A stretch of 23,431 bases of DNA from a virus, in IMG/VR virus record IMGVR_UViG_3300005577_000087, positions 1 through 23,431 of that record. One strand, given 5' to 3'. Shown here piece by piece: positions 2,884 through 20,439 of this stretch (position 1 is the stretch's first letter; each line of letters starts with the position of its first letter). A program made the translations under genes and the position numbers. Under the pieces are notes generated by a model. The model was not told the origin of the DNA. It searched no databases and saw only the letters and a list, made by a program, of their open reading frames with translations.

Positions 2884-5800
2884 TTAGAGACCAAGTGCAG
2901 ATTTGGCTTGGCTCAGCTGGTTCTTCGTCCGACGATAGATCTCGACTTCGGACAAAGATTCGGGCGAAGTGTTGTATTGCTTGAACGTGATGTCACGAAC
3001 GCCGGCCATCGGGTTGACCTGATCCGCGGTTGCGGCAGCCTCTTGCGTCTGCGAAATGGAGCTCGCCTGGGCAAGACCCGTCGATGGGTTAATGGGCGGC
3101 GGAATCATCATCGCACCAATCTTCGACGCATCGCTTTGGACCTTGGACAGGTCAAGCACGGGCGTGATGACGGGCTGGACATTGATAACGCCGTTGATGG
3201 CGTCCGGAACGGAGCCGATCGTCGACTTGATGTTCTCGAGCGCACTCTTGGTAACCTTCGCCAAATTGTCGTCGATGAAGTGTTGACCGTTCTTGACACC
3301 GAAACCGATACCCTCAGAAATCGGCTCACCGATCTCCTTGGCGAACAGCTTCGAAGGCGAGTTGATGTGCAGGACGCCGGCAACTTTACTCAGCGCACCC
3401 TTGGCCGCACCAACCAACGAAGTACCGATCTTCCAGGCGCTTTGACCAATGCCCTTGACGATGCCTTCGATGATGTCGACACCGATCTGAACACACTTCT
3501 CGATGATCTGTGGCTCGTAAACCTTGATGGCTTGATCGAGACCATCGAGGAAGTCCAGAATGGCTTGGCCGGCAGCGAGAACCAGGTTCGTCGACTGCTT
3601 GGCCAGACCCGTGATGAACTTCCCGAGTGCTGCAGCACCAGCGTTGACGATGTTCGTCGCGTTTCTACCCAGTCCGGTAACGAAGTGGATAATCGCGTTT
3701 GCGCCGGCGGTAACTACTCGACTGAGATTGTTACCAACCGCCGTGATGAACGTCGTGATGATGCTGAAGACCTGGTTCGTGACCTTGGTGATGTTATTCG
3801 CAATTCCCTTGAGGAACTGCGTGAGAACACCCAAACCCGCCGCGACAATAGACGGCGCTTTCTTCGCCAGAGCATCCAGGAACTTCACGACAATGTCGGC
3901 GACCTGGTTGGTGACATTGACGATGTTGTTCTTGATGCCCGACAGCAAATCGGTCAGAAGCTGGAGACCAGCCGCTACCACATCTGGAGCATTGTCGGTC
4001 AGGAACTTGAGGAAGGCCTGCAGAACCGCACCAAGTGCGTCCGCAACCTGCGGCGCATCCAGAATGATCGCAGCGGCAATCGAAGCGATGATGGTGCTGA
4101 ACGCGGCAACGATCGAAGGACCGTTATCGCCGATGACCTTGAGGATGTTGATGAATCCCTCGGCGAACGCTTCTGCGATGCTGGGGATTTCCTCGACTAT
4201 GGCTTGGATGGCCAGAATCAGGACAGCAATGCCCTTGGCTCCGAGATCTCCCAGGACACCGAGACCAGCAGCCAGAGCGGCCACACCCGTCCCAGCGAGG
4301 AGAACGCCTGTACCCAACGCCACAGCTGCGACAGCCATGGCAGCGAGACCCAGTGAGGCACCTTCTGCCAAATATCCCGCGGCGACAAGTAGGCCCAAAG
4401 CGACCGCAGTCGTTCCTAGACCCTTAGCAAGGTTTCCCCAGCTCTCGTTACCGAGTTTGTCGATTACCGGTACCAGAATTGCCAGAGCACCCGAGACGGT
4501 GAGCAAAGCTGCTGCACCTGGGAGAGCTCCACGCATGAGGAACATCGCACCGGCGAGGACACCTAGCGATACGGCAATGGAACCGAGACCCTTACCGAGT
4601 GTTCCGAACGAGAGGCTCGCCATCGCGACGATAGCCTTCTGAATCAGCTGTAGAGCACCAGCCACGATGATGAGCCCTGCAGCTTGCACTGCTAGGCCCT
4701 TGGGCATCACACGCATGCCGGCAGCGATTGCTACCAACGCGAGAGCAACTCCACCCAACCCCCGACCGAGTTGTTTCCAGTCAAGCTTGGAGAAGTCGTT
4801 GACTGCGAAATATAGCGCGTTCAGTGCGCCGGCAAGAAGCACGAGAGCAGCCGCTTGAGCGACCATACCCTTCGGCATCACTCGCATAGCAACTGCGATG
4901 GCCAACAGCGCTGTAACAACGCCGATGAGACCCTTGATCAGATCTCCCCAACTCATCAGGGAGAACAGCTTGACTGCGCCAGCCAGAATGTTCATAGCTA
5001 CCGCAATTGCCATAATTCCGACACCCGCGGAAATCATACTCCCGGAGTTTTTCGAAATTATGAGAGTTGCTGCTGATATGCCAGCCAGCAGCACACTGAC
5101 TCCAGTCAACCCCTTCTTGAGCTCGTCCCAGCTCATACTCGCCATGACCTTTACGGCCGCAGCAAGGATCAGAATGGACGTAGCCAAGAGATTGAGCGAA
5201 GCTGCCGCCAGTGGAAGCTTGACGAATCCCGCTCCACTAGTGACCTTGGTCAAGACAGCCATGGCTCCGAGGAGTTCCCCGAATCCGACAGCCATCGCCT
5301 TGAGTGACTTGGTGAGTGCCTCGGAATTGACCAGCGACAAGGCCACCACAGACGCTGTGAGAAGCGCAATGGCACCCGCGATGAGCAACAGAGACTTGGC
5401 CTTGATCTGGGTTTGCATGGCCTTCAAAGACCCCGTCAAGGTTTCGAAGGTCTCCCCGATCTTGCCAAATATGCCCTTTCCGATGTCGATGTTGATGCCA
5501 CCGGAGAGGAATTTCTTCACCAGGAGCAGAATGCCCCCGAGAAGAGCGGTGTTGATGACGTCTAGAACGTGGTTGAAGTCGCCGTTCTTCATGGCGTTGG
5601 CAATGTTCTGCCCAAGTGCCCCAAACAGCGCAACTACGCCGTCCAAAGCCGGCTTTACTTCTTGTGCCAGCTCCTTGACGAATCCACTGATACCACTGCC
5701 CAGGTTCGAGAGCAGTTCCTTAAGCGGCTCGAGGCGTTGCTGCACTCGATCGAGCGTTCCGGTAACACCGTCCGCATCCTTCTTGCGGAATCCGGAGAAC

Positions 5801-7392
5801 AACGCCGCAATCGCGGACCCAATTGCCTTGAGTGCGATAATCGGCTCGGCAGCGAAGAACGCAACCTTGTTGAACCAGATCTCGAGCGCATCGCCCTTCT
5901 TGAGCGCCTGATCGAGAGCCACAAGCCAATCGGAGACGGGCTTGATCAACTTGAAGAAGCCACCACCCACCCCGGAAAACTGGGCGAGAAGACTACCGAA
6001 GACAGTTACGATGCCCTTGACTACTTGACGACCGATATCGATGGCTGCGAACACGCCAGCGAATACCGTTTTGATTCCCTGCAGAGTTGCCTTGCTGGGA
6101 ACCAACATCTTCATCAAGTTGTCGAACTGCGTCGAGAACCGAAGCAGGTCTTGCGCCGTCTTCGGTGGGAAGATCTCTCGGAACCCAGCCTTAACGGCAC
6201 CAAGTACTGCACCCAAAGCATGAATACCTTGAGTGAAGCCGTCGATGACCTTGGTGCGAGCGCCGAGCTTGGACGCGGCATTGAGCAGATCCGCCAAGTG
6301 GTTGACAGGACCAGTCAGGGCTTTCTCGGCGGCGTTGTGGACCTTGGTGAACAGATCCGTCGCCTGGTTGATGTCGCCAAATATAGCTTTGAAGACGTTG
6401 GCCCACGCGGAAGCGACTTCTTCCTTCAGAGCATCAGTCAGCTGACTGATGGTCTTGATCTTGGTGGCAGCACCAACAGCAGTTTTGCCGAGCTTGAGGA
6501 TCGATTGGGCCTCTTGATCGGTGAAGCCCATAGCCTTGAGCTGTGCAGCACTCAGATCTCCCGTGAACTGCGACAGAGTCTCAGTCAGGATCTTGGAAGT
6601 GATCCAGCCCTCTTGCAGCGACTCGCGGAAGCTGCCGTCCTTCTTGATCATCTTGTCGACAGCGACGCCGTGTGCCTCGGCTGTCTTGATCAAAGCGTTC
6701 TGAAAGACCTTGCCGCCCAGTCCGGCATTGACCACCGAGTTCCAGTCCTGCAACTTGACCGAGCCAGCAGCGATAGCCTGCGACAGCTGGTACATCGCCG
6801 TCGAGGCTTGATCCGCGCTCGAGCCCGAAAGAGCTGCCAGGTTGGAAATACCCTTGATCGAGGAGACCGAGGTCTTCAGATCCACGCCGGCCGCAGTGAA
6901 CGTACCGATGTTCTTCGCCATGTCGGCGAAACTGAACACTGTCTGGTTGGCGTACGTGTTCAGCTGGTCCAAGTACTTAGTGACCGTCTGAAGAGTTGTG
7001 CCGCTACCGGAGGTATTGGCGAGAATGGTCTGAACTGCGTTGATCTGAGTCGTGTAGTTCTGGAGACCAGCCTTGATGGGGTCAATCGTGAAGGCTGAAA
7101 CGACTCGTTCGCCGGCGAGGACTGCCTGGTGAACTACAGTGGCGAAAGCAATGAGACCGGCAGTCTTCCAAGCATTGAAGTGGCCGCTGGACTTGTCAAC
7201 TTCGCTATTGACGTTGCCCATGCTGAACTTGTTAGCAGAAGCCTGAACCTCGTCGAGGCCGTTCTTCTTGGATATGCCGAAGTTGACAGCATCCTTGAGC
7301 TTCTGCAGCATACCCAGAGCAACCGAAGCTGCTTGTGTGAAGCCCCGATTTTCTAGCTCCAACTGGATTACGCGATCTTCAACAGTCGCCAT
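2884..7392 (-). CDS. Tape measure protein
   Basis: A 1502-residue protein, by far the longest gene here and located between the tail proteins and Dit, as expected for the protein that sets tail length and is threaded through the tube lumen. At about 1.5 angstrom per residue it predicts a tail near 225 nm. Residues about 690-1045 are tandem hydrophobic repeats, and residues about 1130-1290 are a second repeat family. The tail end carries INSPSKLFAKEIGEPI (about residues 1337-1352), a motif widely conserved near tape-measure C-termini. No lysozyme, peptidase or zinc motif is visible. The start is ATG at 7392, overlapping the preceding TAA (TAATG). Only a weak purine stretch precedes it, so translation is probably coupled to the gp10-like gene. 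Confidence 0.95.
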   Translation of the reverse strand: MATVEDRVIQLELENRGFTQAASVALGMLQKLKDAVNFGISKKNGLDEVQASANKFSMGNVNSEVDKSSGHFNAWKTAGLIAFATVVHQAVLAGERVVSAFTIDPIKAGLQNYTTQINAVQTILANTSGSGTTLQTVTKYLDQLNTYANQTVFSFADMAKNIGTFTAAGVDLKTSVSSIKGISNLAALSGSSADQASTAMYQLSQAIAAGSVKLQDWNSVVNAGLGGKVFQNALIKTAEAHGVAVDKMIKKDGSFRESLQEGWITSKILTETLSQFTGDLSAAQLKAMGFTDQEAQSILKLGKTAVGAATKIKTISQLTDALKEEVASAWANVFKAIFGDINQATDLFTKVHNAAEKALTGPVNHLADLLNAASKLGARTKVIDGFTQGIHALGAVLGAVKAGFREIFPPKTAQDLLRFSTQFDNLMKMLVPSKATLQGIKTVFAGVFAAIDIGRQVVKGIVTVFGSLLAQFSGVGGGFFKLIKPVSDWLVALDQALKKGDALEIWFNKVAFFAAEPIIALKAIGSAIAALFSGFRKKDADGVTGTLDRVQQRLEPLKELLSNLGSGISGFVKELAQEVKPALDGVVALFGALGQNIANAMKNGDFNHVLDVINTALLGGILLLVKKFLSGGINIDIGKGIFGKIGETFETLTGSLKAMQTQIKAKSLLLIAGAIALLTASVVALSLVNSEALTKSLKAMAVGFGELLGAMAVLTKVTSGAGFVKLPLAAASLNLLATSILILAAAVKVMASMSWDELKKGLTGVSVLLAGISAATLIISKNSGSMISAGVGIMAIAVAMNILAGAVKLFSLMSWGDLIKGLIGVVTALLAIAVAMRVMPKGMVAQAAALVLLAGALNALYFAVNDFSKLDWKQLGRGLGGVALALVAIAAGMRVMPKGLAVQAAGLIIVAGALQLIQKAIVAMASLSFGTLGKGLGSIAVSLGVLAGAMFLMRGALPGAAALLTVSGALAILVPVIDKLGNESWGNLAKGLGTTAVALGLLVAAGYLAEGASLGLAAMAVAAVALGTGVLLAGTGVAALAAGLGVLGDLGAKGIAVLILAIQAIVEEIPSIAEAFAEGFINILKVIGDNGPSIVAAFSTIIASIAAAIILDAPQVADALGAVLQAFLKFLTDNAPDVVAAGLQLLTDLLSGIKNNIVNVTNQVADIVVKFLDALAKKAPSIVAAGLGVLTQFLKGIANNITKVTNQVFSIITTFITAVGNNLSRVVTAGANAIIHFVTGLGRNATNIVNAGAAALGKFITGLAKQSTNLVLAAGQAILDFLDGLDQAIKVYEPQIIEKCVQIGVDIIEGIVKGIGQSAWKIGTSLVGAAKGALSKVAGVLHINSPSKLFAKEIGEPISEGIGFGVKNGQHFIDDNLAKVTKSALENIKSTIGSVPDAINGVINVQPVITPVLDLSKVQSDASKIGAMMIPPPINPSTGLAQASSISQTQEAAATADQVNPMAGVRDITFKQYNTSPESLSEVEIYRRTKNQLSQAKSALGL
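3525..4000 (-). repeat. Second repeat family in the tape measure C-terminal half
   Basis: Residues about 1130-1290 hold five diverged blocks of about 22 residues with the pattern (V/I)-V-x-A-G-x-x-x-(L/I)-x-x-(F/L)-(L/V)-x-G-(I/L). Examples are DVVAAGLQLLTDLLSGI, SIVAAGLGVLTQFLKGI, RVVTAGANAIIHFVTGL, NIVNAGAAALGKFITGL and NLVLAAGQAILDFLDGL. The linkers differ in length. These amphipathic helices are unlike the upstream hydrophobic repeats, so the protein has two independent repeat systems. Confidence 0.65.
4390..5330 (-). repeat. Tandem ~57-residue hydrophobic repeats in the tape measure
   Basis: At least five in-frame units share the pattern (S/D)W-x-x-L-x-(K/R)-G-L-x-G followed by a hydrophobic, Ala/Leu/Val-rich helix, often with RVMPKG and AGAL. 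The aromatic residue opening each unit falls at residues 755 (SWDELKKGL), 815 (SWGDLIKGL), 872 (DWKQLGRGL), 929 (SFGTLGKGL) and 985 (SWGNLAKGL). The spacing is 60, 57, 57 and 56 residues. A more degenerate unit (SEALTKSLKAM) precedes them. Such repeats are a common way for tape measures to change tail length by unit duplication, and the hydrophobic helices may insert into the host membrane. Confidence 0.75.
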
Positions 7393-7769
7393 TACTTATT
7401 CACCGCCTTCCACACTTCGTCGGCTATTTGCTGGAACAGTGGTCTGATCACGGGGTTGATGTAGTCTCTCCCTTGTACGAAACCGCCGGTACCGGTCCCG
7501 TGTCCGTATTGGATCAGGATGGCAATCGGTCGCCCATCTACCACGTGCGAGTTGTGAAATATGATTGCGTGATGGCCGTGCTTATGCACGATCTCGTAGT
7601 ACCACGAGTGCGCAGTCTCCCCGGTATCCGTGGGAGTAGCACTGGCCAACAACGCAACACCTTTTGCGCCATACTCATCGAGTATTTTGAAGGCTTCCTC
7701 ATCTTTTATTCTGCGCAGGAAGGCTTCCGTCTTGTTGAAGGAGCCTTTGGACTTAAATATGATCGCCAT
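7392..7769 (-). CDS. HK97 gp10-like neck/tail-completion family protein
   Basis: A 125-residue protein with the HK97 gp10-like signature: 'SATPTDTGETAHSWYYEI' at about residues 43-60, then 'IIFHNSHVVDGRPIAILIQY' and GHGTGTGGFVQGRDYINP. Members normally sit in the head-tail joining cluster between the head-closure and tail-terminator genes and help complete the neck or tail. Here the gene is displaced, lying between the polyglycine tail gene and the tape measure, about 4.6 kb from the other neck genes. The start is ATG at 7769 with TTAGGAGGAG upstream. Its TAA overlaps the tape-measure ATG (TAATG). Family assignment is firm from the motifs, but the exact structural position in this virion is inferred. 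Confidence 0.8.
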   Translation of the reverse strand: MAIIFKSKGSFNKTEAFLRRIKDEEAFKILDEYGAKGVALLASATPTDTGETAHSWYYEIVHKHGHHAIIFHNSHVVDGRPIAILIQYGHGTGTGGFVQGRDYINPVIRPLFQQIADEVWKAVNK

Positions 7770-7783
7770 TGACTCCTCCTAAC

Positions 7784-8860
7784 TCAGATGAGCTTGTAGA
7801 CGCGGATTAGGACCATTCCTGCTGCGCCGGCGTATCCGGGGGTACATTTTGTGGGGTTGTCGTCGAAGGTGCCATAGTCGACACCGCCTTTACCACCCGA
7901 ACCCCCAGCGCCCGGCAACTGTCCATCCGAGCCTTCTGTGCCTCCATTGAGAGGTCCACCACCGCGGCCGTTACCGGTGAAATTCGTTCCAGTAAGGAGG
8001 TCAAGGTTCGCGCCAGCTCCACCCCCACCTCCGCCACCTCCGAAGACGTAAGAGGTACCGGGCCGGTAATCCGTCGGAAACGCCTCAGGCCAAGAACCAT
8101 TACCGCCTCCGTTCATAAGACCAGTTCCGTCGCCACCGCGACCGCCAACAAGATTGAGGATTTGACTCATGTCGGAGTAATATGACGAACCTGAGCCACC
8201 GCCTCCACCGCCTCCACCAGAACCAATGAAGTTCGAGTAGTAATCGGTCGTGGCACTCGTGCCGTCGGTTCTGGGTGCGCCAGATTGACCGCCCGTACCT
8301 CCGCTACCAGCTCCGTCGAAGCCTGTACCACCGGCACCAGCGAATTCGTTTGAAGCAGCGGATCCCGCGGCTCCAAAGTCATTACCAGCTCCTGCGCCAG
8401 CTCCACCTCCACCACCGATCTTGGTGCTGGTTGCGTTTCCACCGGGTGCGCCTTTGCCGCCTCCATATGCGGTGTAGCCCGCAAAAGACGAATCGTTTCC
8501 AGTGGTTCCGAAAGCAGTACGAGCACCACCCGCGACGGATTCAGCGACAACAACTGGATTGCTGGCAGAAAGGCTGGCTAGCGAAAGTGCGAACACGGCT
8601 CTAATGCCGCCAGCTCCGCCTCCTCCGCCTCCTCCACCTCCGTGACGATGTGATGTAGGAAGACCAGGTTCAGCCGATTGACCCCAACCCATTCCTCCAC
8701 CACCGCCGGAGCCACCTCCACCTACAATCCAGGCGTCGTAGGTGTCGTATCCTGCAGCGAGGTACTGTGCGATGGTGAAATCGCCACTCTCTTTGAATGG
8801 CACCCACAAACTGAGCTGAGTTTGCTCAACTGTGGAAGTGCTACCGAACAACAGTCTCAC
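7784..8860 (-). CDS. Glycine-rich minor tail protein / adhesin-like
   Basis: A 358-residue protein. The N-terminal part (about residues 1-45) ends FTIAQYLAAGYDTYDAWIVG, and the rest is dominated by runs of four to nine glycines separated by short loops (for example at residues about 48-55, 74-82 and 214-222). It closes with a conserved-looking GYAGAAGMVLIRVYKLI. Polyglycine sandwich domains of this type occur in phage tail-tip adhesins, such as the S16 gp38 type, where glycine runs form packed polyglycine-II helices and the loops between them contact the receptor. Glycine-rich minor tail proteins are also frequent in actinophages. The start is GTG at 8860 with AGAGGAG upstream. It follows the collagen-repeat protein (stop 8872), suggesting they act together at the tail tip or along the tail. 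Confidence 0.8.
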   Translation of the reverse strand: MRLLFGSTSTVEQTQLSLWVPFKESGDFTIAQYLAAGYDTYDAWIVGGGGSGGGGGMGWGQSAEPGLPTSHRHGGGGGGGGGAGGIRAVFALSLASLSASNPVVVAESVAGGARTAFGTTGNDSSFAGYTAYGGGKGAPGGNATSTKIGGGGGAGAGAGNDFGAAGSAASNEFAGAGGTGFDGAGSGGTGGQSGAPRTDGTSATTDYYSNFIGSGGGGGGGGSGSSYYSDMSQILNLVGGRGGDGTGLMNGGGNGSWPEAFPTDYRPGTSYVFGGGGGGGGAGANLDLLTGTNFTGNGRGGGPLNGGTEGSDGQLPGAGGSGGKGGVDYGTFDDNPTKCTPGYAGAAGMVLIRVYKLI

Positions 8861-8871
8861 AATTTCTCCTC

Positions 8872-9528
8872 TCAGGTCGGTCCGGCGTCGTAAACGGCAC
8901 AGTAACCGAGGCTAGCGGTATCAGCAGCGTTTCCGCCCTGAACTCGAGCAACACCGATGAACGCGGTGTATGTGCCTGCAGCGAGAAGAGCATCTCGAGC
9001 GGCGTTGACCGAACTACGACCCGGACCACCGGTATTTGCTGGATTACCGTATTTCTGTGTCGAGCCATCGCTAGCCAGGTTTACGGCTCCAGTGAGCGTT
9101 GCTGTTGATCCAGAAACGTACATCGGATATACAGCATCGTCTCGGGCTGCTGTCGCGGCTGGAGTGAAGTTCGCATTCACCTCGATACGTATTCTGCGTT
9201 GCGCCGCAAGTGTGAACGTCACTTTGACAACGGGAAGAAGAAATATAGATGTCGTCGACAACGTGACGGTGTCTGTACTGGCACTTTTCGAACTCCCAAG
9301 AAACTTACCCATGGTGAGGTCTGCATCTGCGCCTGCTGGGCCTGTAGCTCCAGTAGCTCCAGTAGCTCCTGTGGCGCCGGTATCTCCTTTGACCAAACCG
9401 GCATCTACAGTTGATCCGTCGTGGCGAGTCAGGATCAGATGACCGCTGCCATCGACAGTCGCATCGACGATAGTTGCGTCTTCGATCGCTTGTTCACGCG
9501 CAGCGGTGAATCCGGTAATCGTTGCCAC
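8872..9528 (-). CDS. Collagen-repeat minor tail protein
   Basis: A 218-residue protein. The N-terminus MATITGFTAAREQAIEDATI, then VDATVDGSGHLILTRHDGST, is a head common to many actinophage minor tail proteins. A short collagen-like stretch of G-A-T triplets with GPAG follows at about residues 47-67. The C-terminal domain (about 70-218) is beta-rich and ends LGYCAVYDAGPT, probably a trimeric fibre or receptor-binding domain. The start is GTG at 9528 with TTAGGAGGACAC in front, 8 bases from the stop of the third tail-tube paralogue. Placement between the tube paralogues and the polyglycine protein suggests a tail decoration or fibre. Receptor binding is inference. Confidence 0.8.
   Translation of the reverse strand: MATITGFTAAREQAIEDATIVDATVDGSGHLILTRHDGSTVDAGLVKGDTGATGATGATGATGPAGADADLTMGKFLGSSKSASTDTVTLSTTSIFLLPVVKVTFTLAAQRRIRIEVNANFTPAATAARDDAVYPMYVSGSTATLTGAVNLASDGSTQKYGNPANTGGPGRSSVNAARDALLAAGTYTAFIGVARVQGGNAADTASLGYCAVYDAGPT
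9343..9378 (-). repeat. 9-bp tandem repeat encoding collagen-like Gly-Ala-Thr triplets
   Basis: Four near-identical 9-base units are visible (plus-strand form agtagctcc, with tgtagctcc and tgtggcgcc as variants). Each encodes Gly-Ala-Thr or a Gly-Pro variant on the minus strand. Such units readily expand or contract by slippage and would change fibre length in steps of one collagen triplet. Confidence 0.7.
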
Positions 9529-9536
9529 GTGTCCTC

Positions 9537-10235
9537 CTAATCGCTGCTAAGCGTGTACGAATCCGCGTCAATATAGACTGCGGTGGGCCAAGTGAGTTGC
9601 CAAGTAGTGTCGTCGAGCCACACCACTGCTTCGTCAGGACCAATTGCTGTCCATGTTCCGTCTCCGTGGTTGAACACACGAAGAACAGTCATGGTTAGCA
9701 GAAGTTCAAGGAAATAGCCGAACGAAGGCAGTTGAGCAGCATCCGTATCGGTGCCGTAAAGCACATCTTCGAAAGCTGAAACGACGTTATCCGGAATAAG
9801 CGACAAGTCGAGTATGAAGTGAGCTGTCGGCTTAATTCCAGGATACTCGACGGGAACAGTCACGAATTTCCATGAGAATCCCGCCGGAGCAATACTATTC
9901 GTTTCAGTTTTCCATGCCACATCAGATGGCTCTGCGCGGCAATTATAGACGAGATGGATCTGATTGTTTTCTCGGTACGAAAAACCAAACGATCTCGTGT
10001 AGTCCGAGAATTCATCGGGATATGTGAATGCGTCGACGCCAAGAAGGAAATCTCCGACGAATTGTGGGGTCAAATATTTGACGCCATCCAAATATACCGA
10101 ATCGCCTGTCAGTGCATCAGGATTCTCAGTTACGGAGGTAACTCCACTCCACGCAACTGCTCCGGTGGGCAAATATATCACGCACCGATCTATTCCTGCG
10201 CTGTAGTTGTTCTGATCCCAAGTCAGTTTTGACAT
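9537..10235 (-). CDS. Third tail-tube-type protein with distinct C-terminal module
   Basis: A 232-residue paralogue of the two upstream tail-tube proteins. Shared landmarks are MSKLTWDQ, GIDRCVIYLPTGAVAWSG, VYLDGVKYL, FTYPDEF, FGFSYREN, IHLVYNC and KPTAHFILD. It lacks the long insert before FGFSYR and carries a C-terminal extension (about residues 187-232) with 'GDGTWTAIGPDEAVVWLDD' and WPTAVYIDADSYTLSSD, a separate beta module of the kind appended to phage tail proteins. The frame is open upstream to 10436, but the ATG at 10235 gives the conserved MSKLTWDQ start and overlaps the previous stop as TAATG. It could be a minority tube subunit, a tube-end ring or an adaptor for the fibres that follow. 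Confidence 0.75.
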   Translation of the reverse strand: MSKLTWDQNNYSAGIDRCVIYLPTGAVAWSGVTSVTENPDALTGDSVYLDGVKYLTPQFVGDFLLGVDAFTYPDEFSDYTRSFGFSYRENNQIHLVYNCRAEPSDVAWKTETNSIAPAGFSWKFVTVPVEYPGIKPTAHFILDLSLIPDNVVSAFEDVLYGTDTDAAQLPSFGYFLELLLTMTVLRVFNHGDGTWTAIGPDEAVVWLDDTTWQLTWPTAVYIDADSYTLSSD

Positions 10236-10891
10236 TACGACCCCAATAGAGTCGCGATTACCGTCTCCTGAGTTGGAAGTTGCGCGTTGATCTCGAGATC
10301 GTCTGCGAGATCGTTGCCGTACAACAGCGTCTCCAAGTTTGCGAGAGCAGTAGGATCCGCTTTGGTGGAGTCGACAACAAAGTGAGCGGTGGGCTTGTAT
10401 CCTGTGGCCTGAGGTGGTACAGAATTGATCTCCCAAGACAAATCCGTGGGGTCTGCTGTAGTGCTGAGAGTCTTGTTGGCTCTCGAAGTGGGAGAAGCAA
10501 TACAGTTGTACACGAGATGGAGTTTGTAACCGTAGGCCATGCCATCCGTGTCATTCCCGATCAACGTTCGGTAAGAGAACCCGAATCTGGCTCGAGGTTG
10601 CTGTGTTGCGATGAGTCCCGGGGCGAGAGACACGTTTCCGTCGCAGGGATTGAAATCCTCCGGAGCAGAAAACGCGGCAATGGTTGCCTTGTAGTCCTCA
10701 CTCGCAACGACGTCTAGATACTTGACGCCATCGAGATAAATCGGAGTGGTTTCACCACCCAGAGGACTTTCGTCCACCGAAACTAGACCGCTCCAAGATA
10801 CGCCGATCTTTGTTCGGGGGTAGAGAACGCCACGGTCGACTCCTGCTTCGACCAGACGAGTACCTACCTGATCCCAAAGAAGCTTTGTCAT
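10235..10891 (-). CDS. Second tail-tube-type protein (paralogue without Ig domain)
   Basis: A 218-residue protein homologous along its whole length to the first tail-tube protein: 'MTKLLWDQVGTRLVEAGVDR', GVLYPRTKIGVSWSGL, IYLDGVKYLD, FGFSYRTLIGNDTDGMAYGY, KLHLVYNC, YKPTAHFVVDST and LETLLYG. It stops at the end of the tube domain, so the Ig-like C-terminal domain of the first copy is absent. The start is ATG at 10891 with AAAGGAGG upstream, 12 bases after the chaperone stop. The next paralogue overlaps its stop. Its composition (about 53 % GC on sampled lines) is lower than that of the first copy (about 63 %). Expression level and role in the tail are unknown. Confidence 0.75.
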   Translation of the reverse strand: MTKLLWDQVGTRLVEAGVDRGVLYPRTKIGVSWSGLVSVDESPLGGETTPIYLDGVKYLDVVASEDYKATIAAFSAPEDFNPCDGNVSLAPGLIATQQPRARFGFSYRTLIGNDTDGMAYGYKLHLVYNCIASPTSRANKTLSTTADPTDLSWEINSVPPQATGYKPTAHFVVDSTKADPTALANLETLLYGNDLADDLEINAQLPTQETVIATLLGS

Positions 10892-10903
10892 GCTCGCCTC
10901 CTT

Positions 10904-11449
10904 TCATCCTCGAGTGTTGAATTCTTTCCGCCGTCGCTCATTCAGTTCTCGACGCCGTTCTGCAGCGGTAGCCTTGTCTACCTTCTCGGGCTTGGAGTTC
11001 TTGATGCTGCAAATCTTGACCAGCGTCAACAAACGGTTGAGATGCCATCGCTCAACCGGTTCGAACGGAATGCTGAACGTGGACAACCAGAAGTAGATCA
11101 GCTCTGAAGTGATCGTCTCAGACGTCTTCGGGGCTTTCTTCATCTCGTTAAACCAAGTAGCAGTCATTGGATCTTGTATGTAGTTGTTTACCTCTGTTAA
11201 GTTGTCAGGAGTCAGTCTGGAGAAAACCTCCGGAGGAAAGTCCGAGGTCAAAACCATAAGTTTGATGTAGTCAAGCGTTTCCTCTGTAGTTTTCTTTGCT
11301 TCAGAAAGAAACGGCTTCTTGTATTTCGACTCCCATTTTGACACCGAGACAAGAGAATGCTCTAGGTCCAGTATGATGTCCCCTACCGTGACGAACTCCG
11401 AGGTAGATTCATCGTAAGCTTCGTCTCCTGGGACTATTAACCTGAGCAT
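10904..11449 (-). CDS. Tail assembly chaperone (Gp15-like)
   Basis: A 181-residue, mostly helical protein beginning 'MLRLIVPGDEAYDESTSEF' and ending with a basic helix AAERRRELNERRRKEFNTRG. This resembles the Gp15-type tail assembly chaperones of siphoviruses of Gram-positive hosts. Such proteins bind the tape measure and deliver tube subunits. The ATG at 11449 has GGAGG 8 bases upstream. The same frame is open for 135 bases further up, inside the tube gene, but lacks a comparable start. Many phages make a second chaperone by -1 frameshifting. I see no classical slippery heptamer near the end and no separate downstream chaperone frame, so this appears to be a single-ORF chaperone. Position after the major tail protein fits. 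Confidence 0.75.
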   Translation of the reverse strand: MLRLIVPGDEAYDESTSEFVTVGDIILDLEHSLVSVSKWESKYKKPFLSEAKKTTEETLDYIKLMVLTSDFPPEVFSRLTPDNLTEVNNYIQDPMTATWFNEMKKAPKTSETITSELIYFWLSTFSIPFEPVERWHLNRLLTLVKICSIKNSKPEKVDKATAAERRRELNERRRKEFNTRG

Positions 11450-11480
11450 TCTCTCGCCTCCATCAGTTTGTCGGGCTCGA

Positions 11481-11672
11481 CTAGTAGTCGAATGCCCAGT
11501 CGGTGTCGCCCTCGAGGATGTATCCGGACTGCGCCACGGCCTCGACCACTGCGGTCTGACCAGCGGTGAGCGCGGGCTGAGCACCCGAGGCCTTGTTGAC
11601 GCCGTTGACCTTCCACTGGACGCCAGTGACCGCCGGCAGAGTGACCACGTGGGTACCCGAGTCGTAGGTCGG
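11481..11672 (-). other. Ig-like surface domain of the tail tube protein
   Basis: This region encodes the last 63 residues of the tube protein. Its order of landmarks is V-V-T-(L/I)-P, T-G-V, a short K-containing strand, L-T-A-G, A-G-x-T, V-x-A-V, S-G-Y, and a final W-(A/S)-F. The same order is seen at the C-terminus of the major capsid protein. Confidence 0.65.
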
Positions 11673-12359
11673 CTGGTTCGCCGCGGTGTTCAGGTTGACG
11701 TTGGTCGACGTGCCCTCGAAGAGCGCGATCACCTGGTCCGGCGTGGGCAGCTGCGGGCTGGTGCTCGACGTGCCGTACAGCAGATCCTCGAGCTGGCTCA
11801 GCAGCGTGCCGTCGACCTCGGTCGAATCGATCGTCAGCGTGGAGGTCGGCTTGTGGCCGGTCACCGGTACTGGCGTGGTTGAGATCGTCCAGCTGAAGTT
11901 CAGCGCCTCCGGCGAGTCGTTGACCGTCGCGTGCGCCTGCTCCGAGGGAGCTGCCTGGCAGCCGTACACCAGGTGCAGCTTGTAGCCGTAGGCCGTTCCC
12001 TCCTGGTCGTTGCCCTTGAGGGTGCGGTACGACAAGCCGAACACACCGCGGTCCTGCTGACCAACGGTCACACCCGGCGTGGGCGTGGCCTTGCCGTCGA
12101 ACTGCTCGAACTCCTTCGGGTACGTGAAGGCCTCGATGGTGCCGTCGAACTGCTCCGCCGAGATCAGGTTCACGTAAACCTGGTTGTCCGCGTACTGCTT
12201 GTTGGACTCGGCGCCCGAGGGCGACTCGGTGACGGTCGTCAGACCGTTCCAGGCCACGCCATCGTCGTAGACGCCATCGGTGGGGATGTAGAGAACGCCG
12301 TGGTCGACACCGGTCTCGTACTCACGCTCCCCGATGTTGTCCCAAGTGAGCTGGGTCAT
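11481..12359 (-). CDS. Major tail tube protein with C-terminal Ig-like domain
   Basis: A 292-residue protein beginning MTQLTWDNIGEREYETGVDH and containing VAWNGLTTVTESPSGAES, FGLSYRTLKGNDQEGTAYGY, KLHLVYGCQAAPS and LEDLLYGT. These are landmarks of an actinophage tail-tube family. Residues about 230-292 form an Ig-like domain (VVTLPAVTGVQWKVNG, SGYILEGDTDWAFDY), probably displayed on the tail surface. It is the best candidate for the abundant tube subunit because it follows the tail terminator, precedes the chaperone and has markedly GC-rich codon use like the capsid gene. The start is ATG at 12359 with AGAAGGGAAGAAGC upstream. Two diverged copies follow downstream. Confidence 0.85.
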   Translation of the reverse strand: MTQLTWDNIGEREYETGVDHGVLYIPTDGVYDDGVAWNGLTTVTESPSGAESNKQYADNQVYVNLISAEQFDGTIEAFTYPKEFEQFDGKATPTPGVTVGQQDRGVFGLSYRTLKGNDQEGTAYGYKLHLVYGCQAAPSEQAHATVNDSPEALNFSWTISTTPVPVTGHKPTSTLTIDSTEVDGTLLSQLEDLLYGTSSTSPQLPTPDQVIALFEGTSTNVNLNTAANQPTYDSGTHVVTLPAVTGVQWKVNGVNKASGAQPALTAGQTAVVEAVAQSGYILEGDTDWAFDY

Positions 12360-12995: not shown

Positions 12996-13205
12996 TCAGG
13001 CCGGCCGCGTGAACGACCACTGGTCCTGCTGGTCCGACTCGAAGTAGTAGCCGGAAGCGGGAACCGCGATGACGTTCAGCGTGTCTCCAGCCGCGAGAGC
13101 GGTCTGGGCGCCGGCGGTGAGAGTGGCGCTGGTGTCGGCGTTCTTGTAGACCACGCCCGTCTGGGTCGGGATCGTCACCACGCCGGTGGACTCGACGAAG
13201 GTCGG
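12996..13205 (-). other. Ig-like surface domain of the major capsid protein
   Basis: This region encodes the last 69 residues of the capsid protein: VVTIPTQTGVVYKNADTS, LTAGAQTALAAGDTLNVIAV, then PASGYYFES and QWSF. The order of these elements matches the tail tube C-terminal domain. In HK97-fold capsids such appended domains usually project from the outer surface. Confidence 0.65.
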
Positions 13206-14303
13206 CTCGGTGATCGGGTCGACCAGGGTGTCGGACGAGGACTCCAGGTGGACGACCAGCGCCGAACGGATCTTGGTCAGAGCGCCCGAAGCACGGCCCT
13301 CGTAGAGGTACTTGTACTGGTTGTAGTCGATGTCGAAGAAGTCGAAGAAGGTCGTCTCCCCGCCACGGTCGGTGCCGACCGTGTAGTCGCTCAGGTTGAC
13401 GATGATCCCGAACAGGTCGGTCTCGTCCTCCATGACCTCGACGTCGACGATGTCTGCGACGCCCATCTCGGCGGCCAGGTCGGCCCGGGTCCGGTAGAGA
13501 CGCCGGCCCAGCGAGTCGCGGAGCAGGAGCAGATCGGTGACGTTCGGCAGCGTGGTGTAGAGCGTCGGCGAACCGCTGCCCTTGTAGAACCGCTGCGCCT
13601 TGACGAGCTCGTCCATCAGCTTCGTCAGAGCGGTCGTGCTGCCGTCGCCTTTGGTGACGTTGATGTGAGCGGCGTACAGCTCGTGGTCGTTCAGGATCGA
13701 GCGGATGCCGAGACCGTCCTGTGCACCCATGGGGTCCTTGACCTTGTCCTCGTCGCCGACATCGCGGCCGTCGCCGATGAGGATCGCGCGCGCGACTTCC
13801 TCGCGCAGCATCAGCTGCATCTCGCCCTTCATCCAGGCCACCACGTCGAAGTCGGTGATGTCCAGGATGTCGTCGCGGTCGAGCTTCTGCTTCTTGTAGA
13901 TCGTGGTCGGGCCGGTGGTCCGCTTGGAGACGCTGAAGAACTCTTCCTTCTTCAGGTTCCCCTTGATGTAGCCCTTCGCCCGCGCCTCCTCCATGGTGAT
14001 GTCGGCGGTCAGCGACTTGATCCGGCTGAAGGGCGTCTTGCGGGTGCCGTTGATGACTCCCTGCACCCACGCCATCCGTCGCGAATCGAACTGCGGCGTC
14101 GCGTCGACGGACTTGGGGTCCGGGAACAGGACGTCGATGTTGTCGATGTTGTGCTTCAGGGCGTAGCCCTCGACCGCAGCCTTCAGCGAGCCGCAGTTGA
14201 CGGCGTCCTGAACGATCTGCTTCATGTCGTCGTGGCTCAGAGACCGACGCTCGGCCGTCTTGGTGTCGCCACCGTCGTTCTGATCGAAGACGTTACGGGT
14301 CAT
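12996..14303 (-). CDS. Major capsid protein from an internal in-frame start
   Basis: Within the protease fusion, the ATG at 14303 (residue 252 of the fusion, sequence MTRNVFDQNDGG) is preceded by AAGGAAGG with a 7-base spacer. That site is as good as those of the normal genes and is unlikely to arise by chance exactly at the scaffold-capsid junction. It would yield a 435-residue protein containing the capsid fold and the C-terminal Ig-like domain without protease or scaffold. I infer that most capsid subunits come from this start while a minority are made as fusion protein that supplies protease and scaffold. The capsid domain call rests on context and size; the internal start is seen directly. 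Confidence 0.65.
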   Translation of the reverse strand: MTRNVFDQNDGGDTKTAERRSLSHDDMKQIVQDAVNCGSLKAAVEGYALKHNIDNIDVLFPDPKSVDATPQFDSRRMAWVQGVINGTRKTPFSRIKSLTADITMEEARAKGYIKGNLKKEEFFSVSKRTTGPTTIYKKQKLDRDDILDITDFDVVAWMKGEMQLMLREEVARAILIGDGRDVGDEDKVKDPMGAQDGLGIRSILNDHELYAAHINVTKGDGSTTALTKLMDELVKAQRFYKGSGSPTLYTTLPNVTDLLLLRDSLGRRLYRTRADLAAEMGVADIVDVEVMEDETDLFGIIVNLSDYTVGTDRGGETTFFDFFDIDYNQYKYLYEGRASGALTKIRSALVVHLESSSDTLVDPITEPTFVESTGVVTIPTQTGVVYKNADTSATLTAGAQTALAAGDTLNVIAVPASGYYFESDQQDQWSFTRPA

Positions 14304-15056
14304 TTCCGTTCCTTCCTTGTGTTCGAGGTCGCCCTCGTCCTTCTTGTCGGAGTGAGAGGAGCTGGCGCCCTCGATGGCGGCACCTACCATGTACTGAACG
14401 ACCTGCTTCTGTGCGTCGTTCATGGAGTCGTAGATCTCCTGAACGGTGGGATTCTCAGCGGAGTGTTCGACCGCCTCTTCCTCCGTCTTGGAGTCTTCGA
14501 CCTTGTCCGTGTCGTCCTCGGTGGACTCTTCGGATTTGTCCTCGACCTTGTCGTCGGGGACGGTCTCGTCGGTCTTGGACTGCTCGGGCTTGTCCTCGTG
14601 CTCGATGACCAGACCGGTGTAGATGATGGCTTCGCCCTCGATCTCATCGACACTGCCATCGGCGTGACGCACCGCGACCTGATCGATGAACGCGCCGGGA
14701 TTGGCGCCGGCCAGAACGAGGCTGACCTCGCGAATGAAGCCGTGGTAGACCTGCTTGGCCTTCTCGACCAAACCGTTTGCGTAGATCGAAAGGCGAGTGA
14801 TGTCCTTGTGTTGGACAAGGATGTCGGCGTTCTTGCCCTGCGGCGTGCTGTTGAAGTACGCGTAGCCGTAGACGCCATCCGGACGAGCCTCCAGGTCCAC
14901 GTGACCCAGAACGTTGTCTGGGCTGTCGTGACCGTGCTGCCAGACCAGAGGAACCGTCTGCCCATCCATGTGCTGGAACGCTTCGGGCTTGATGGTCCGT
15001 CCGTCGGTGCACTTGAGGTCAGCCCGGGTCACGTAGCCGCTGAAATCAGCTCCCAT
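12996..15056 (-). CDS. Fused prohead protease-scaffold-major capsid protein
   Basis: A 686-residue polyprotein. Residues 1-150 are an HK97-type (S78) prohead protease: VWQHGHDSP with His41/His43, LSIYANG with the probable nucleophile Ser90, and REVSLVLAGANPGA at 109-122. Residues about 150-250 are an acidic linker plus a helical delta/scaffold-like stretch (PTVQEIYDSMNDAQKQVVQY). Residues about 252-610 are the major capsid protein, and 618-686 an Ig-like domain. Expected processing removes protease and scaffold during maturation. I chose ATG 15056 over the upstream GTG 15077 because the AAGGAG ribosome site lies between them. It overlaps the portal stop by 11 bases. A strong internal start occurs at 14303. 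GC content is visibly higher than in the flanking genes. Confidence 0.9.
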   Translation of the reverse strand: MGADFSGYVTRADLKCTDGRTIKPEAFQHMDGQTVPLVWQHGHDSPDNVLGHVDLEARPDGVYGYAYFNSTPQGKNADILVQHKDITRLSIYANGLVEKAKQVYHGFIREVSLVLAGANPGAFIDQVAVRHADGSVDEIEGEAIIYTGLVIEHEDKPEQSKTDETVPDDKVEDKSEESTEDDTDKVEDSKTEEEAVEHSAENPTVQEIYDSMNDAQKQVVQYMVGAAIEGASSSHSDKKDEGDLEHKEGTEMTRNVFDQNDGGDTKTAERRSLSHDDMKQIVQDAVNCGSLKAAVEGYALKHNIDNIDVLFPDPKSVDATPQFDSRRMAWVQGVINGTRKTPFSRIKSLTADITMEEARAKGYIKGNLKKEEFFSVSKRTTGPTTIYKKQKLDRDDILDITDFDVVAWMKGEMQLMLREEVARAILIGDGRDVGDEDKVKDPMGAQDGLGIRSILNDHELYAAHINVTKGDGSTTALTKLMDELVKAQRFYKGSGSPTLYTTLPNVTDLLLLRDSLGRRLYRTRADLAAEMGVADIVDVEVMEDETDLFGIIVNLSDYTVGTDRGGETTFFDFFDIDYNQYKYLYEGRASGALTKIRSALVVHLESSSDTLVDPITEPTFVESTGVVTIPTQTGVVYKNADTSATLTAGAQTALAAGDTLNVIAVPASGYYFESDQQDQWSFTRPA
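14311..14318 (-). promoter_or_regulatory. Internal Shine-Dalgarno sequence for the capsid protein
   Basis: AAGGAAGG is read on the minus strand, 7 bases before the in-frame ATG at 14303 inside the protease-capsid fusion gene. It decides the proposed second start. Confidence 0.65.
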
Positions 15057-16320
15057 TTTGACTGTCTCCTTCCGCACTTGTCGGTGCCTGCCCCGACGGA
15101 GCTGGCGGGTTCTGTGTTTGGTTTGGATTTGGTTGTGGCATGTTGCTGTTCATGAGCTTGTCGGCATTTGGATCCTTCGACGGGACCATTCCCATCGCAC
15201 CTCGAAGCTCATTCGGCGTAACAATTTCGTTCCGCGAAAGTTTGTCCGCAATGGTTGCCAAACCATTATCCCCGCCGATGGGAACCAACTTGAACGGATC
15301 ACGGAAGTACATGATCGACTGTCCCTGCGTTCGCGCCGTCTTGGTCAAGAAGGTGCGTCGCATGGCCTCGACGATGGCCTGGAGAATCGGCTCGACCGTC
15401 CGGTTGTAGTAGTTGAGCATCGTCGCTTCGTCAGCGGTTCCGTTCATGACTTCTTCGGTGATGCCCAGCTGGCTGTACAACAACGCAGTCAGATACTGAA
15501 CCTGGCTCAACAGATTGTTCTCGGCTGGTCGGTTCAGCTGCGTGATCTTTTCGGTTCCGTCAGCATAAGCAATGCCGTACTTGCTTCCGCTGAGTTGGAA
15601 CTCGATGTCCTTGCGGCGTTGTTCAGCTTGCTGCCTACGGCTTTCGGACTTGACGACGTACGGAAGCTGGATGATCAGATCGAGTTTGCCCGAGCCGGAC
15701 TGTTCGTCAACGGCGTCGAGGATGTTTAGCTTCCGAATCAGTCGCTGAAGAGTCGAACTCTTCTCGTTCATCACCAAGTACAACGGGTTCTCGACGATGG
15801 CGACGGACTTCTTCTCCAGAGTGATCTGCTCTCGCAGTCCAGTCCGCTCGTTGTACAGCTCGACTCGAACGTGATACGGATACCAGCTGACGATCTTGCC
15901 GACTCGCATCGTCTGGATGTCGAAACTGGTGCTTTCCGCTGGATTGATCGTCGTATCTACCGGAACAACAGCGATGACGCCCTGATCGAGAAGCGTCAGA
16001 ACCGTGTCGATCTTGAACGCCAATGCGGATTGATCGACATTCGCTTCGACCGTAAGACAATTATGCAAACCATCTCTGATGACGCCGCTGAATCGATCTT
16101 GATCGTCCAGACGAACGTGTTTCAGATCCATGATGCCTGCGTCGATGGCGATGCGAGTAAGAACCGAGGAGACGATCGATCGCTCGTTCGAATAGTGAAC
16201 CCGGTTTCGGTCAGGTCGAGTGCTCGTGACTGTTCCGTAGGCACCAGTGAAGACTTCTTCTGGTTCCTGTCGAGTGAACGCATTCCATGCGTGCTTCAAC
16301 CGCGAACCGAGTGTTGCCAT
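15046..16320 (-). CDS. Portal protein (HK97 family)
   Basis: A 424-residue portal protein, forming the dodecameric ring at the capsid vertex through which DNA enters and leaves. Typical family landmarks are 'NERSIVSSVLTRIAIDAG' near residues 44-61, VSWYPYHVRVELYNERTG mid-protein, the 'YLTALLYSQLGITEEVMNGT' stem/wing helix region, and 'LSRNEIVTPNELRGAMGM' near the C-terminus. The C-terminal tail is Pro/Gln/Asn-rich and low-complexity. It lies directly after the large terminase and overlaps the protease-capsid gene by 11 bases. The ATG at 16320 has a strong GAGGAGGTGA site. Length is normal for the family. Confidence 0.92.
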   Translation of the reverse strand: MATLGSRLKHAWNAFTRQEPEEVFTGAYGTVTSTRPDRNRVHYSNERSIVSSVLTRIAIDAGIMDLKHVRLDDQDRFSGVIRDGLHNCLTVEANVDQSALAFKIDTVLTLLDQGVIAVVPVDTTINPAESTSFDIQTMRVGKIVSWYPYHVRVELYNERTGLREQITLEKKSVAIVENPLYLVMNEKSSTLQRLIRKLNILDAVDEQSGSGKLDLIIQLPYVVKSESRRQQAEQRRKDIEFQLSGSKYGIAYADGTEKITQLNRPAENNLLSQVQYLTALLYSQLGITEEVMNGTADEATMLNYYNRTVEPILQAIVEAMRRTFLTKTARTQGQSIMYFRDPFKLVPIGGDNGLATIADKLSRNEIVTPNELRGAMGMVPSKDPNADKLMNSNMPQPNPNQTQNPPAPSGQAPTSAEGDSQNGS

Positions 16321-18960: not shown

Positions 18961-20439
18961 TCACGTGGCAAAGTACTCGACGAGCACTCCGTAGGTTTGC
19001 GCCGAAGTCGGAGCGGCAGCACCAACTGTAATCGGCGTGGTGGTATCTGACGAAGCAGCAGTAGCGTGAATTGTGCCCATCGCTGCTGGGCCGCCAGAGA
19101 AATAATGGGTTGACGCTGGACTACTATCGACTGCAGAACTCGCATCGAAACTAGAAACGTCTGTCGAAGGATTTCGTTGTGAGTAATGAAGGCAGAACAA
19201 CGATCCAACTTGTGTCGGCGTAGCCGTAGCTTCTGCGGTCGATGTGTTGTTTAGCACTGCGGCCACAAGAGGCGGCGTATTCGCAGCGTTCTCTATCGCT
19301 CCAACCCACGTTCCACAAGGACCATTGCTGCTGAACGTCCAGGTGATGGTGACCGATGTTGTGACGTCAGAGCCGGTGTCATTATACCAACCCCATACAC
19401 CTTGTCTTTGTGTTAGATCGAAATCTTGGATCGTGGTCCACGTGTGACTGTCGCTATCTGAAATTGCTAGATCGTCACCAGTCTGACCAGCCTGCCAACA
19501 TGCGTGCACGATTCCCCACGCTCCAGTCGGAATCGTTACCGAAACGGTATGCATCGCAGTAGGACTGGAAATACTTTCAGCAATCGTCGAAAGATAATCG
19601 ACAACCGCAGCACTGAGTGTGATTTCGTCCAAAGGCGGACCGCTAATCCCACCAGCCACAACCCACGAAGTTCCGTCGAATCCTGCCATTGGATGACTTG
19701 TCCAGGACGAACCGTCCCATACCTTGGCATCATGTGGATTCCACGAGGTTCCATCCCAGACTTTCGGTTTTCCCGAACGACCGAGAGAGAAATCGAAACT
19801 CGGTGGATCCGCAGACATGGTCCACGGCCCGCTACGCGAAGCCTCAGTTCCTCCTCCAGCAAGATCCACGAATGGCTCAGCGAGACCGCCGGCTTCGGGA
19901 AAATGCACGAAGAACTGAGGACCAGCATCGAGAATCGCTTTTGAGCTCCGGAGGAAAATTGCCTCGATCTCTGCGTTGCTCAACTTCGACGTCCAAGCAG
20001 CGAGAAGGGCCATGTCGCCCTCCATGCCATTGGCGAACTCGTCTCCGATGGAGAAACGATTCATGTTCTGATAGTTCGCACGTGTCCCATTCATGAAACT
20101 ATGCGACCAGGTCAGTACGCCAGACTCGGAATACGTGGCAACGTGAGATTCAGGCGCCACATCCCCTTCCATCTTCGCGGTAATCAGCCAGTACCAATGC
20201 GAGGACGAAATATCGAGGAAATCGGTTGACTGCTTGAAGTTGTTCCACAAACTTCCGTCGAAATATAGGTTCACCTGTGCGAAGTTCTCGGGCTGATAGG
20301 CGTACCACAGATTTGAATCCTTGCCAGGAAGGTTCTGGAACAAGCACGCGACAGTGTACGGAGCACTTGGGAGCGTTGGACAACCGGGCGAGAATATGCT
20401 CAGGTGCTCAGCGAAATCAGTGCTTCCGTGAAGGCTCAT
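18961..20439 (-). CDS. LamG-like minor tail/fibre protein
   Basis: A 492-residue protein. Residues about 10-165 look like a concanavalin/LamG jelly-roll: 'YTVACLFQNLPGKDSN' opening, 'HWYWLITAKMEGD' central strands, 'FSIGDEFANGMEGDMALLA' and a closing AAWTSKLSNAEIEAIF. Residues 224-261 hold three short repeats of the type (K-V-W/G-F)-D-G-(T/S)-S-W. Residues about 265-492 are another beta-rich domain ending YGVLVEYFAT. Such modules occur in actinophage minor tail proteins that bind cell-surface glycans. The frame is open up to 20565, but the ATG at 20439 overlaps the stop of the preceding fibre gene (ATGA). That coupling suggests the two proteins form one complex. Confidence 0.75.
   Translation of the reverse strand: MSLHGSTDFAEHLSIFSPGCPTLPSAPYTVACLFQNLPGKDSNLWYAYQPENFAQVNLYFDGSLWNNFKQSTDFLDISSSHWYWLITAKMEGDVAPESHVATYSESGVLTWSHSFMNGTRANYQNMNRFSIGDEFANGMEGDMALLAAWTSKLSNAEIEAIFLRSSKAILDAGPQFFVHFPEAGGLAEPFVDLAGGGTEASRSGPWTMSADPPSFDFSLGRSGKPKVWDGTSWNPHDAKVWDGSSWTSHPMAGFDGTSWVVAGGISGPPLDEITLSAAVVDYLSTIAESISSPTAMHTVSVTIPTGAWGIVHACWQAGQTGDDLAISDSDSHTWTTIQDFDLTQRQGVWGWYNDTGSDVTTSVTITWTFSSNGPCGTWVGAIENAANTPPLVAAVLNNTSTAEATATPTQVGSLFCLHYSQRNPSTDVSSFDASSAVDSSPASTHYFSGGPAAMGTIHATAASSDTTTPITVGAAAPTSAQTYGVLVEYFAT

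Follow-up and report, generated by a model that had tools for sequence, protein, structure and literature searches.

We show that the window, a 23,431-nucleotide stretch of viral DNA (positions 1 to 23,431 of IMG/VR virus record IMGVR_UViG_3300005577_000087), encodes three paralogous tail tube proteins in one gene cluster, and we consider it probable that one of them, A, is the ordinary abundant tube subunit, with the other two, B and C, serving as low-copy tube-fold mounts for fibres. The three ORFs were confirmed at 11481..12359 (A, 292 aa), 10235..10891 (B) and 9537..10235 (C), together on the minus strand, as are all features given below. Pairwise BLASTP aligned A with B at 45% identity over 222 aa (E 7e-66), A with C at 34% (E 1e-34) and B with C at 35% (E 3e-33), a similarity far above chance that marks the three as paralogues, and each matches phrog_2645 ‘major tail protein’ over the tube core (E 4.5e-109, 1.7e-83 and 5.3e-49 for A, B and C, respectively). 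The initial annotation had recognized the cluster from ordered landmarks common to the three proteins, and both observations hold, the landmarks coinciding with or adjoining columns that are invariant when the three proteins are aligned. The different C-terminal ends that it described were likewise found: A continues for 77 residues, B ends with the core and C carries a GDGTW...YTLSS module. What it had called an Ig-like domain in A is a C-terminal decoration domain (11484..11714) from a family that is shared with the end of the capsid fusion, given that a profile of 55 A tails matches the capsid end in the window (E 2e-16); a direct two-sequence BLASTP of these ends, and a Pfam search with the A extension, returned no match.

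Both B and C are predicted to have the tail tube fold, the absence of which from the second and third proteins would have told against the initial annotation. The single-chain model of B (pLDDT 94.4) resembles a tail tube protein with Z 12.1 over 162 residues, and that of C (pLDDT 85.2) resembles the YSD1 major tail protein with Z 9.1 over 124 residues, the top rows of the fold search with C being tube or Hcp proteins; a PDB sequence search with a profile of the tube family gave nothing useful. DSR2-bound tube proteins were also among the fold matches. B retains the conserved loops, and C, a shortened form, lacks two loops present in 70 of 70 A rows. This loss, which is suggestive at most, may free one face of C.

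Between A and B lies a gene of 181 codons (10904..11449), to which the initial annotation assigned the role of tail assembly chaperone. By its conserved position after A alone it is a candidate chaperone; its family match is to phrog_4338 of ‘unknown function’, and a PDB search with its profile produced no convincing match (best E 0.18). The gap of 12 nt between this gene and B is too short for a second frame there. We also considered read-through of the middle-gene stop into B, and rejected it because the shared frame seen in the window (coordinates worked out by hand) is not conserved in Rima, DizzyRudy or Count.

Extra copies of the tube gene, which the initial annotation implied to be rare, are in fact common: our search found 480 tube matches in 243 phage records, two copies flanking the same middle gene are the norm in this phage group, and sets of three are seen repeatedly in phages of Microbacterium and Arthrobacter, single-copy relatives also being found. 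In a tree built with the quick version of the search, all A copies fall on one side of a branch, the side with one copy per locus (70 rows, SH-aLRT 99), and the relatives of B form a clade of 19 rows (SH-aLRT 95). Mean pairwise identity over 91 locus pairs is 64% for A, 50% for B and 42% for C, with A exceeding C in all 91 pairs, so that by this measure B and C evolve faster than A. Some members of the B clade carry extensions of 199–593 aa, and domain matches show that in some relatives of B the tube part runs straight on into minor-tail domains: Linda gp18 combines a tube (residues 1–221) with a minor tail protein (residues 234–636, E 7.8e-74), and L055 joins a tube to a minor-tail domain (E 6.7e-15), its extension giving a sub-threshold match to CBM_4_9 and no other carbohydrate-binding match.

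The extra copies co-occur with inserts of fibre and enzyme genes that separate the middle gene from the pair formed by the gp10-like and tape measure genes. In the window, C is followed directly by a collagen-like tail fibre gene (8872..9528; matches to phrog_9116 tail protein and to tail fibres) and then by a gene for a glycine-rich protein (7784..8860; no family match in phrog and Pfam searches), and the cassette is bordered downstream by a gp10-like tail completion gene (7392..7769; phrog_5, E 9.7e-8), beyond which lies the tape measure gene (2884..7392; TIGR02675, E 2.1e-9). Among the 62 loci having both a middle gene and a gp10-like gene, 54 have a tube copy after the middle gene; in 48 of these 54 the last tube copy is separated from gp10 by 500 nt or more, in four the insert lies between copies 2 and 3, and in two (L053 and L054) the place is taken by a plug-bearing gene hidden by the ORF caller. 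In the eight loci lacking such a copy, the middle gene and the gp10-like gene are adjacent in seven. Gene families represented in the cassettes are tail fibres, GDSL lipases and GH46.

In particular, we have identified a module of ~46 aa at the C terminus of C (9540..9677), here termed a type-1 socket, and an N-terminal segment of ~44 aa in the adjoining fibre (9397..9528), the type-1 plug, which is the sole match of the plug profile in the window. No domain was recognized in the socket by Pfam and NCBIfam, and a PDB sequence search with the plug profile gave nothing useful. The iterated socket profile has 49 matches, all within tube copies, and the plug profile matches directly downstream of tube copies. 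Counting non-redundant loci, type-1 socket and plug occur together in 31, a socket alone in nine, a plug alone in none and neither in 36; where both partners of a non-redundant pair could be typed, the types agree in 39 of 39 (31 of type 1, eight of type 2, none mixed). Of 20 complete phage genomes, 14 have a type-1 plug, with 17 of 17 matches inside the cassette, and the other six also lack a type-1 socket. The pairing has exceptions: for nine of 40 non-redundant type-1 sockets no plug was detected in the next gene, although L089 and L090 have it in the second gene downstream of the socket and the N terminus of L058-type genes looks like a divergent version of it. After four of the 12 type-2 sockets comes gp10 and not a fibre, in L029 a plug-2 gene comes after an A copy, and Qui and Makai, both of which have type-1 sockets, give weaker matches to plug 2. 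Tests of socket against plug corrected for the tree were not significant, with just one and two independent pairs; since the socket and plug sequences lie side by side in the genome, one recombination can move them together, and the pairing may be due in part to shared descent.

The initial annotation had offered a mixed tube, special rings at the tube ends and an adaptor for the downstream fibre genes as three ways to account for the copies, and these do not fare equally. Strong codon bias within the window is confined to the protease–major capsid fusion gene (12996..15077; phrog_3270, E 8.2e-230), our reference for codon optimization, at 0.45, and to A, at 0.48, with B at 0.02 and C at 0.05; CAI is 0.70 for A (z 34), 0.26 for B and 0.20 for C, and in 51 of 51 loci A is more strongly optimized than both the second copy and the last one. 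Since A shares this capsid-like bias, a sign of high expression, and B and C lack it, B and C are probably low-copy and not half of a mixed tube. A tube in which all three supply many wall subunits, for example in alternating or segmental rings, would accord with the predicted fold of B and C, with the loops of B and with the clustering on one strand; considering the codon usage, the faster evolution of B and C and the existence of single-copy relatives, we find it rather improbable. The G+C content of A, which exceeds that of its neighbours, could instead point to recent horizontal acquisition, as proposed for the first copy in cluster DJ Gordonia phages (PMC12859696). We hold this to be extremely unlikely here, since A is the copy retained in single-copy relatives and A copies share one side of a branch, and since the capsid fusion gene has the same GC3 rise in the same genomes (in Petito 0.79, against 0.82 for A), expression explains the higher GC of A.

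Rings without a fibre role, in which B and/or C would act as initiators or connectors like T4 gp54, Afp5 or the middle protein of DT57C, are unlikely in our judgement: they leave the cassette linkage and the minor-tail fusions unexplained, and relatives with the same gene order (L005, L068, L069, L070, L086, L087 and L088) have no such copy, although the loops lost from C fit such a role and DT57C has a dedicated middle-protein ring between tube and Dit (PMC10713586). Special end rings as such may exist, and they could also serve as mounts. It is very unlikely that B and C are decaying duplicates or decoys outside the virion, for instance against tube-sensing defences; their fast evolution, the DSR2-bound proteins among the fold matches and the reduction of the middle copy of Makai to a 98-aa fragment would suit such proteins, but reading frames are intact across the group, and order, sockets and plugs are conserved. 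By comparison, the adaptor role is well supported by the cassette linkage, the socket–plug pairing, the minor-tail fusions and the recurrence of the design in another tube family.

This recurrence is seen in Rhodococcus phage Weasels2, whose tube family, phrog_4574, is unrelated, and Peregrin also repeats the arrangement, one of its plug genes (gp69) having no preceding tube copy. Tube-fold relatives are found in special structural baseplate rings as the tube initiators T4 gp54 and Afp5; to our knowledge, these are not fibre mounts paired with the N terminus of a neighbouring gene product. Rhodococcus cluster CB phages encode two or three major tail subunits that are related to one another, and the paper describing them leaves it open whether all are present in virions (PMC13313380); as in our loci, the extra copies there adjoin fibre or enzyme genes, the canonical copy lying close to the gene for the tape measure, but the tube family is the unrelated phrog_4574. 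A second major tail protein has been reported in cluster DJ Gordonia phages (PMC12859696, PMC11749222, PMC10652937), in the order tube, unknown-function gene and second tube copy (PMC12859696), which is the order found here, and Petito (PMC11749222) is our locus L080, of the same family; the accessible parts of these accounts leave the function of the second copy open and, unlike the present analysis, draw no tie to downstream fibres, socket or plug. A literature search short of full texts found no described function for extra tube copies. In TpeX of the 936 lactococcal phages, an extended tube form bears a host-binding part (PMC6669499), but TpeX and SPP1 gp17.1* (PMC9022992) are described as frameshift extensions of one tube gene, whereas B and C are separate paralogous genes with their own tube domain and the fibre encoded next door. 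LtfC of the siphovirus DT57C, a dodecameric collar protein, forms a dedicated ring that aids lateral fibre attachment (PMC10713586).

Finally, we suggest that A is made in large amounts as the subunit of the tube wall, and that B and C arose by old duplications, kept the tube fold and would be made in small amounts, each entering the virion as one ring or just a few subunits, within the tail or on it, to which host-binding proteins attach. The fibre encoded next door would be held by C, the plug docking to the socket, and B may be a second mount or a spacer. Some relatives of B carry a fused adhesin; the role of B is the least certain, since B of the window has neither socket nor fused adhesin. 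Whether actinobacterial siphoviruses have repeatedly turned tube duplicates into modular mounts, with the tube fold joining the tail and the C terminus acting as an interchangeable socket for display of any fibre, esterase or glycosidase that bears the matching plug, we judge an even question. At least two socket–plug types occur in this family, L030 and L058 suggest a third pairing, and the same arrangement is seen in a tube family unrelated to this one. Many actinobacteriophages have extra major tail genes, whose role or virion presence is stated to be open in two recent papers (PMC12859696, PMC13313380); mounts of this kind, if real, would explain the extra tube genes of many related phages. 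This reading offers an expression-based reason for a GC difference previously taken as horizontal transfer, the pairing points to the attachment sites of adhesins and wall enzymes, and annotators could tell which tube gene encodes the bulk subunit and which ones encode mounts.

In the window, a 23,431-base virus record from IMG/VR, genes A (11481–12359), B (10235–10891) and C (9537–10235), all on the minus strand, are ORFs with the limits given by the initial annotation, and their paralogy is real: pairwise alignments gave 45% identity for A–B (E 7e-66), 34% for A–C (E 1e-34) and 35% for B–C (E 3e-33), and the family match for all three is the major tail protein phrog_2645. AlphaFold2 models, with alignments built from the window and IMG/VR relatives, reached a pLDDT of 94.4 for B and 85.2 for C. 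In structure, B comes closest to tail tube proteins (8xkn: Z 12.1, 2.9 Å, 162 residues) and C to the tail proteins of YSD1 and JBD30 (Z 9.1 and 8.9), the Foldseek list for C consisting almost entirely of tube or Hcp proteins, none with an E-value below 0.001. Since both models have tube-like matches, the proposal that the second and third proteins share the tube fold stands, and by sequence and predicted fold they are members of the major tail protein family. The middle gene between A and B (10904–11449, minus strand), a candidate tail assembly chaperone, consists of one frame and leaves no space for another ahead of B; none of this cluster's genes is a proven tail assembly chaperone, as is likewise stated for cluster DJ in the available text of PMC12859696. 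A domain of about 70 aa (11484–11714 in A) ends both A and the capsid–protease fusion (12996–15077) in the window and most loci of the group, and capsid and tail tube thus seem to have one surface decoration in common.

The supposed rarity of extra tube copies was not borne out. Per query, tblastn matched 480 places in 243 phage records, mostly phages of Arthrobacter, Gordonia and Streptomyces, and the usual order among the annotated records examined is tube, middle gene, second tube. The annotations of Microbacterium phages DizzyRudy, Count, Camille and Damascus list three copies, and by sequence Arthrobacter phage Linda has three as well, its middle one being annotated as a minor tail protein; Lactococcus phages 1706 and P078 and Bifidobacterium phages BitterVaud1 and D_HF4_2 have a single copy. 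Across 92 sequences, many incomplete and including the window and a slice of it, copy matches numbered three in 20, two in 54 and one in 18, those of Makai taking in a 98-aa fragment. In locus L030 (13131–14465) about 213 residues of open frame precede the third copy on its N-terminal side, and the tube domain may thus form the C-terminus of a longer protein. The available text of PMC10652937, PMC11749222, PMC12859696 and PMC13313380, all of which mention such copies, gives no function for them.

In a quick IQ-TREE analysis of 149 non-redundant cores (from 180), a branch with SH-aLRT 99 separates the copies preceding the middle gene (70 rows) from all others, and B belongs to a 19-row clade (support 95) that also holds second copies from DizzyRudy, Camille, Damascus, Count and further phages; it follows that the duplications are old. 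C, on a long branch, is weakly placed. Over 91 locus pairs, mean identity fell from 64% among A copies to 50% among second copies and 42% among third copies. Two segments, of 21–22 and 15–17 residues in all 70 A rows, are shortened in C to 6 and 5; both are shortened in the third copies of L030, L052, L055, L058, L059, L063, L064 and L072, and the first alone in those of L002, L003 and L075. Every locus with a shortened third copy also contributes a second copy to the B clade, where the first segment has 22 residues in 19/19 and the second 10–11 in 5/19; second copies of two-copy loci lack the shortening. We read the loop shortening as a putative specialisation of C, in which one stacking face would perhaps have been lost.

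Strong codon optimisation in the window is limited to the capsid fusion (bias 0.45, GC3 0.88) and A (0.48, 0.90), and B (0.02, 0.56) and C (0.05, 0.49) resemble the fibre genes. CAI against an in-frame capsid reference was 0.70 for A (z 34), 0.26 for B and 0.20 for C (z 0), and A exceeded the second and last copies (means 0.68, 0.36 and 0.33) in all 51 loci in which two or more tube copies and a long capsid gene were found. Since A is codon-optimised and the extra copies are not, codon usage favours A as the bulk subunit, a role that on this evidence B and C do not fill. The available text of PMC12859696 takes the GC difference between copies as horizontal transfer; codon usage tied to expression offers another reading, because the GC of the capsid fusion gene rises as that of A does in Petito and Duffington, which share the two-copy arrangement.

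C ends in a module of about 46 aa (the socket), whose profile matched tube copies only and never A. The following fibre gene begins MATITGFTAAREQAIED..., and this N-terminus of about 44 aa (the plug) recurs directly 3' of tube copies. Among 95 post-middle rows (tube copies that follow the middle gene), 39 have socket and plug, 9 the socket alone, 1 the plug alone and 40 neither, six being left out because the downstream sequence was too short; profile searches found neither in any of 90 A rows. The association in non-redundant rows (31, 9, 0 and 36, respectively) has a Fisher p of 1.8e-13, uncorrected for descent. The type-1 plug occurs in 14 of 20 complete phage records, the same 14 that have the type-1 socket, and is confined to the cassette of fibre and enzyme genes upstream of the gp10-like tail completion gene. 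A second socket (SELI...GDLYR...LPESRL...) accompanies a second plug (YDxYPAVDExFxFPPEVR), and pairs typed at both ends were 31 of type 1, 8 of type 2 and none mixed; the third copy of Linda, whose end seems related by eye and was missed by the profile, is also followed by a type-2 plug. As socket and plug sequences adjoin on the DNA, joint transfer of neighbours could mimic co-adaptation; the three plug matches within the cassette of Breylor17, and the plug confined to the second gene in Kardashian and Scap1, count against linkage alone. Makai gp19 (L079 8283–8579), a 98-aa gene with a repeated DPxDPGFF-like tail, retains no more than a piece of a tube copy and directly precedes a minor tail gene whose plug is partial.

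A post-middle copy is carried by 54 of the 62 loci spanning the middle and gp10-like genes; at least 500 nt separate the last copy from the gp10-like gene in 48 of these 54, and in four (L015, L016, L018 and L073) the insert separates copies 2 and 3. In the other two, L053 and L054, a long ORF masks a plug-bearing gene of 319 aa. Where the post-middle copy is absent, the middle and gp10-like genes are adjacent in 7/8 loci, the remaining one (L088) having an amidase between them. One of these seven, L020, has a second tube copy with its plug-bearing gene 3' of the tape measure gene (9085–11308), as if the two had moved as one unit. Matches of 48 chosen cassette genes, from the loci and the window, include tail fibre families, glycine-rich domains, GDSL lipases, Mtd_N and GH46 glycosidase. 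The window's gp10-like gene (phrog_5, 7392–7769) immediately precedes the tape measure gene and is not in the neck cluster; Rhodococcus phage Weasels2 also has a phrog_5 gene (gp84), right behind the tube gene that is close to the tape measure gene. A second fibre region (18961–20987), upstream of the terminase gene, is separate from the tube cassette; in it, 20436–20987 matches many tail fibre families and the overlapping ORF 18961–20565 none.

Some second copies extend past the tube core (Linda, 679 aa; L055, 787 aa; DizzyRudy, 586 aa; and others). Linda gp18 matches phrog_2645 at 1–221 and the minor tail protein phrog_14138 at 234–636 (E 7.8e-74), which the L055 copy also matches (E 6.7e-15); family searches gave no match for the extensions of DizzyRudy and Camille. 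Weasels2 offers an independent case: its tube family is phrog_4574, and its tube proteins did not match the tube profile of the A/B/C family. Its canonical tube gene, gp83, adjoins the tail completion and tape measure genes. The extra copies gp70 and gp72 have short additional C-termini, with YDSFY and YDSY as their last residues, and 18–20 nt behind them lie an esterase gene and a fibre-like gene, respectively; the bodies of these two are unlike, but their N-terminal ~41 residues can be aligned (E 2e-5); comparison of the next gene, gp74, with gp71 gave E 4e-8. CAI was 0.67 for gp83 and 0.41 and 0.50 for the extra copies, portal and other genes also being high in this phage. Peregrin has the same arrangement with one extra tube copy, and its gp69 is a plug gene with no preceding tube copy. 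B and C most probably serve as low-copy mounts with a tube fold that carry the host-binding proteins encoded next to them.
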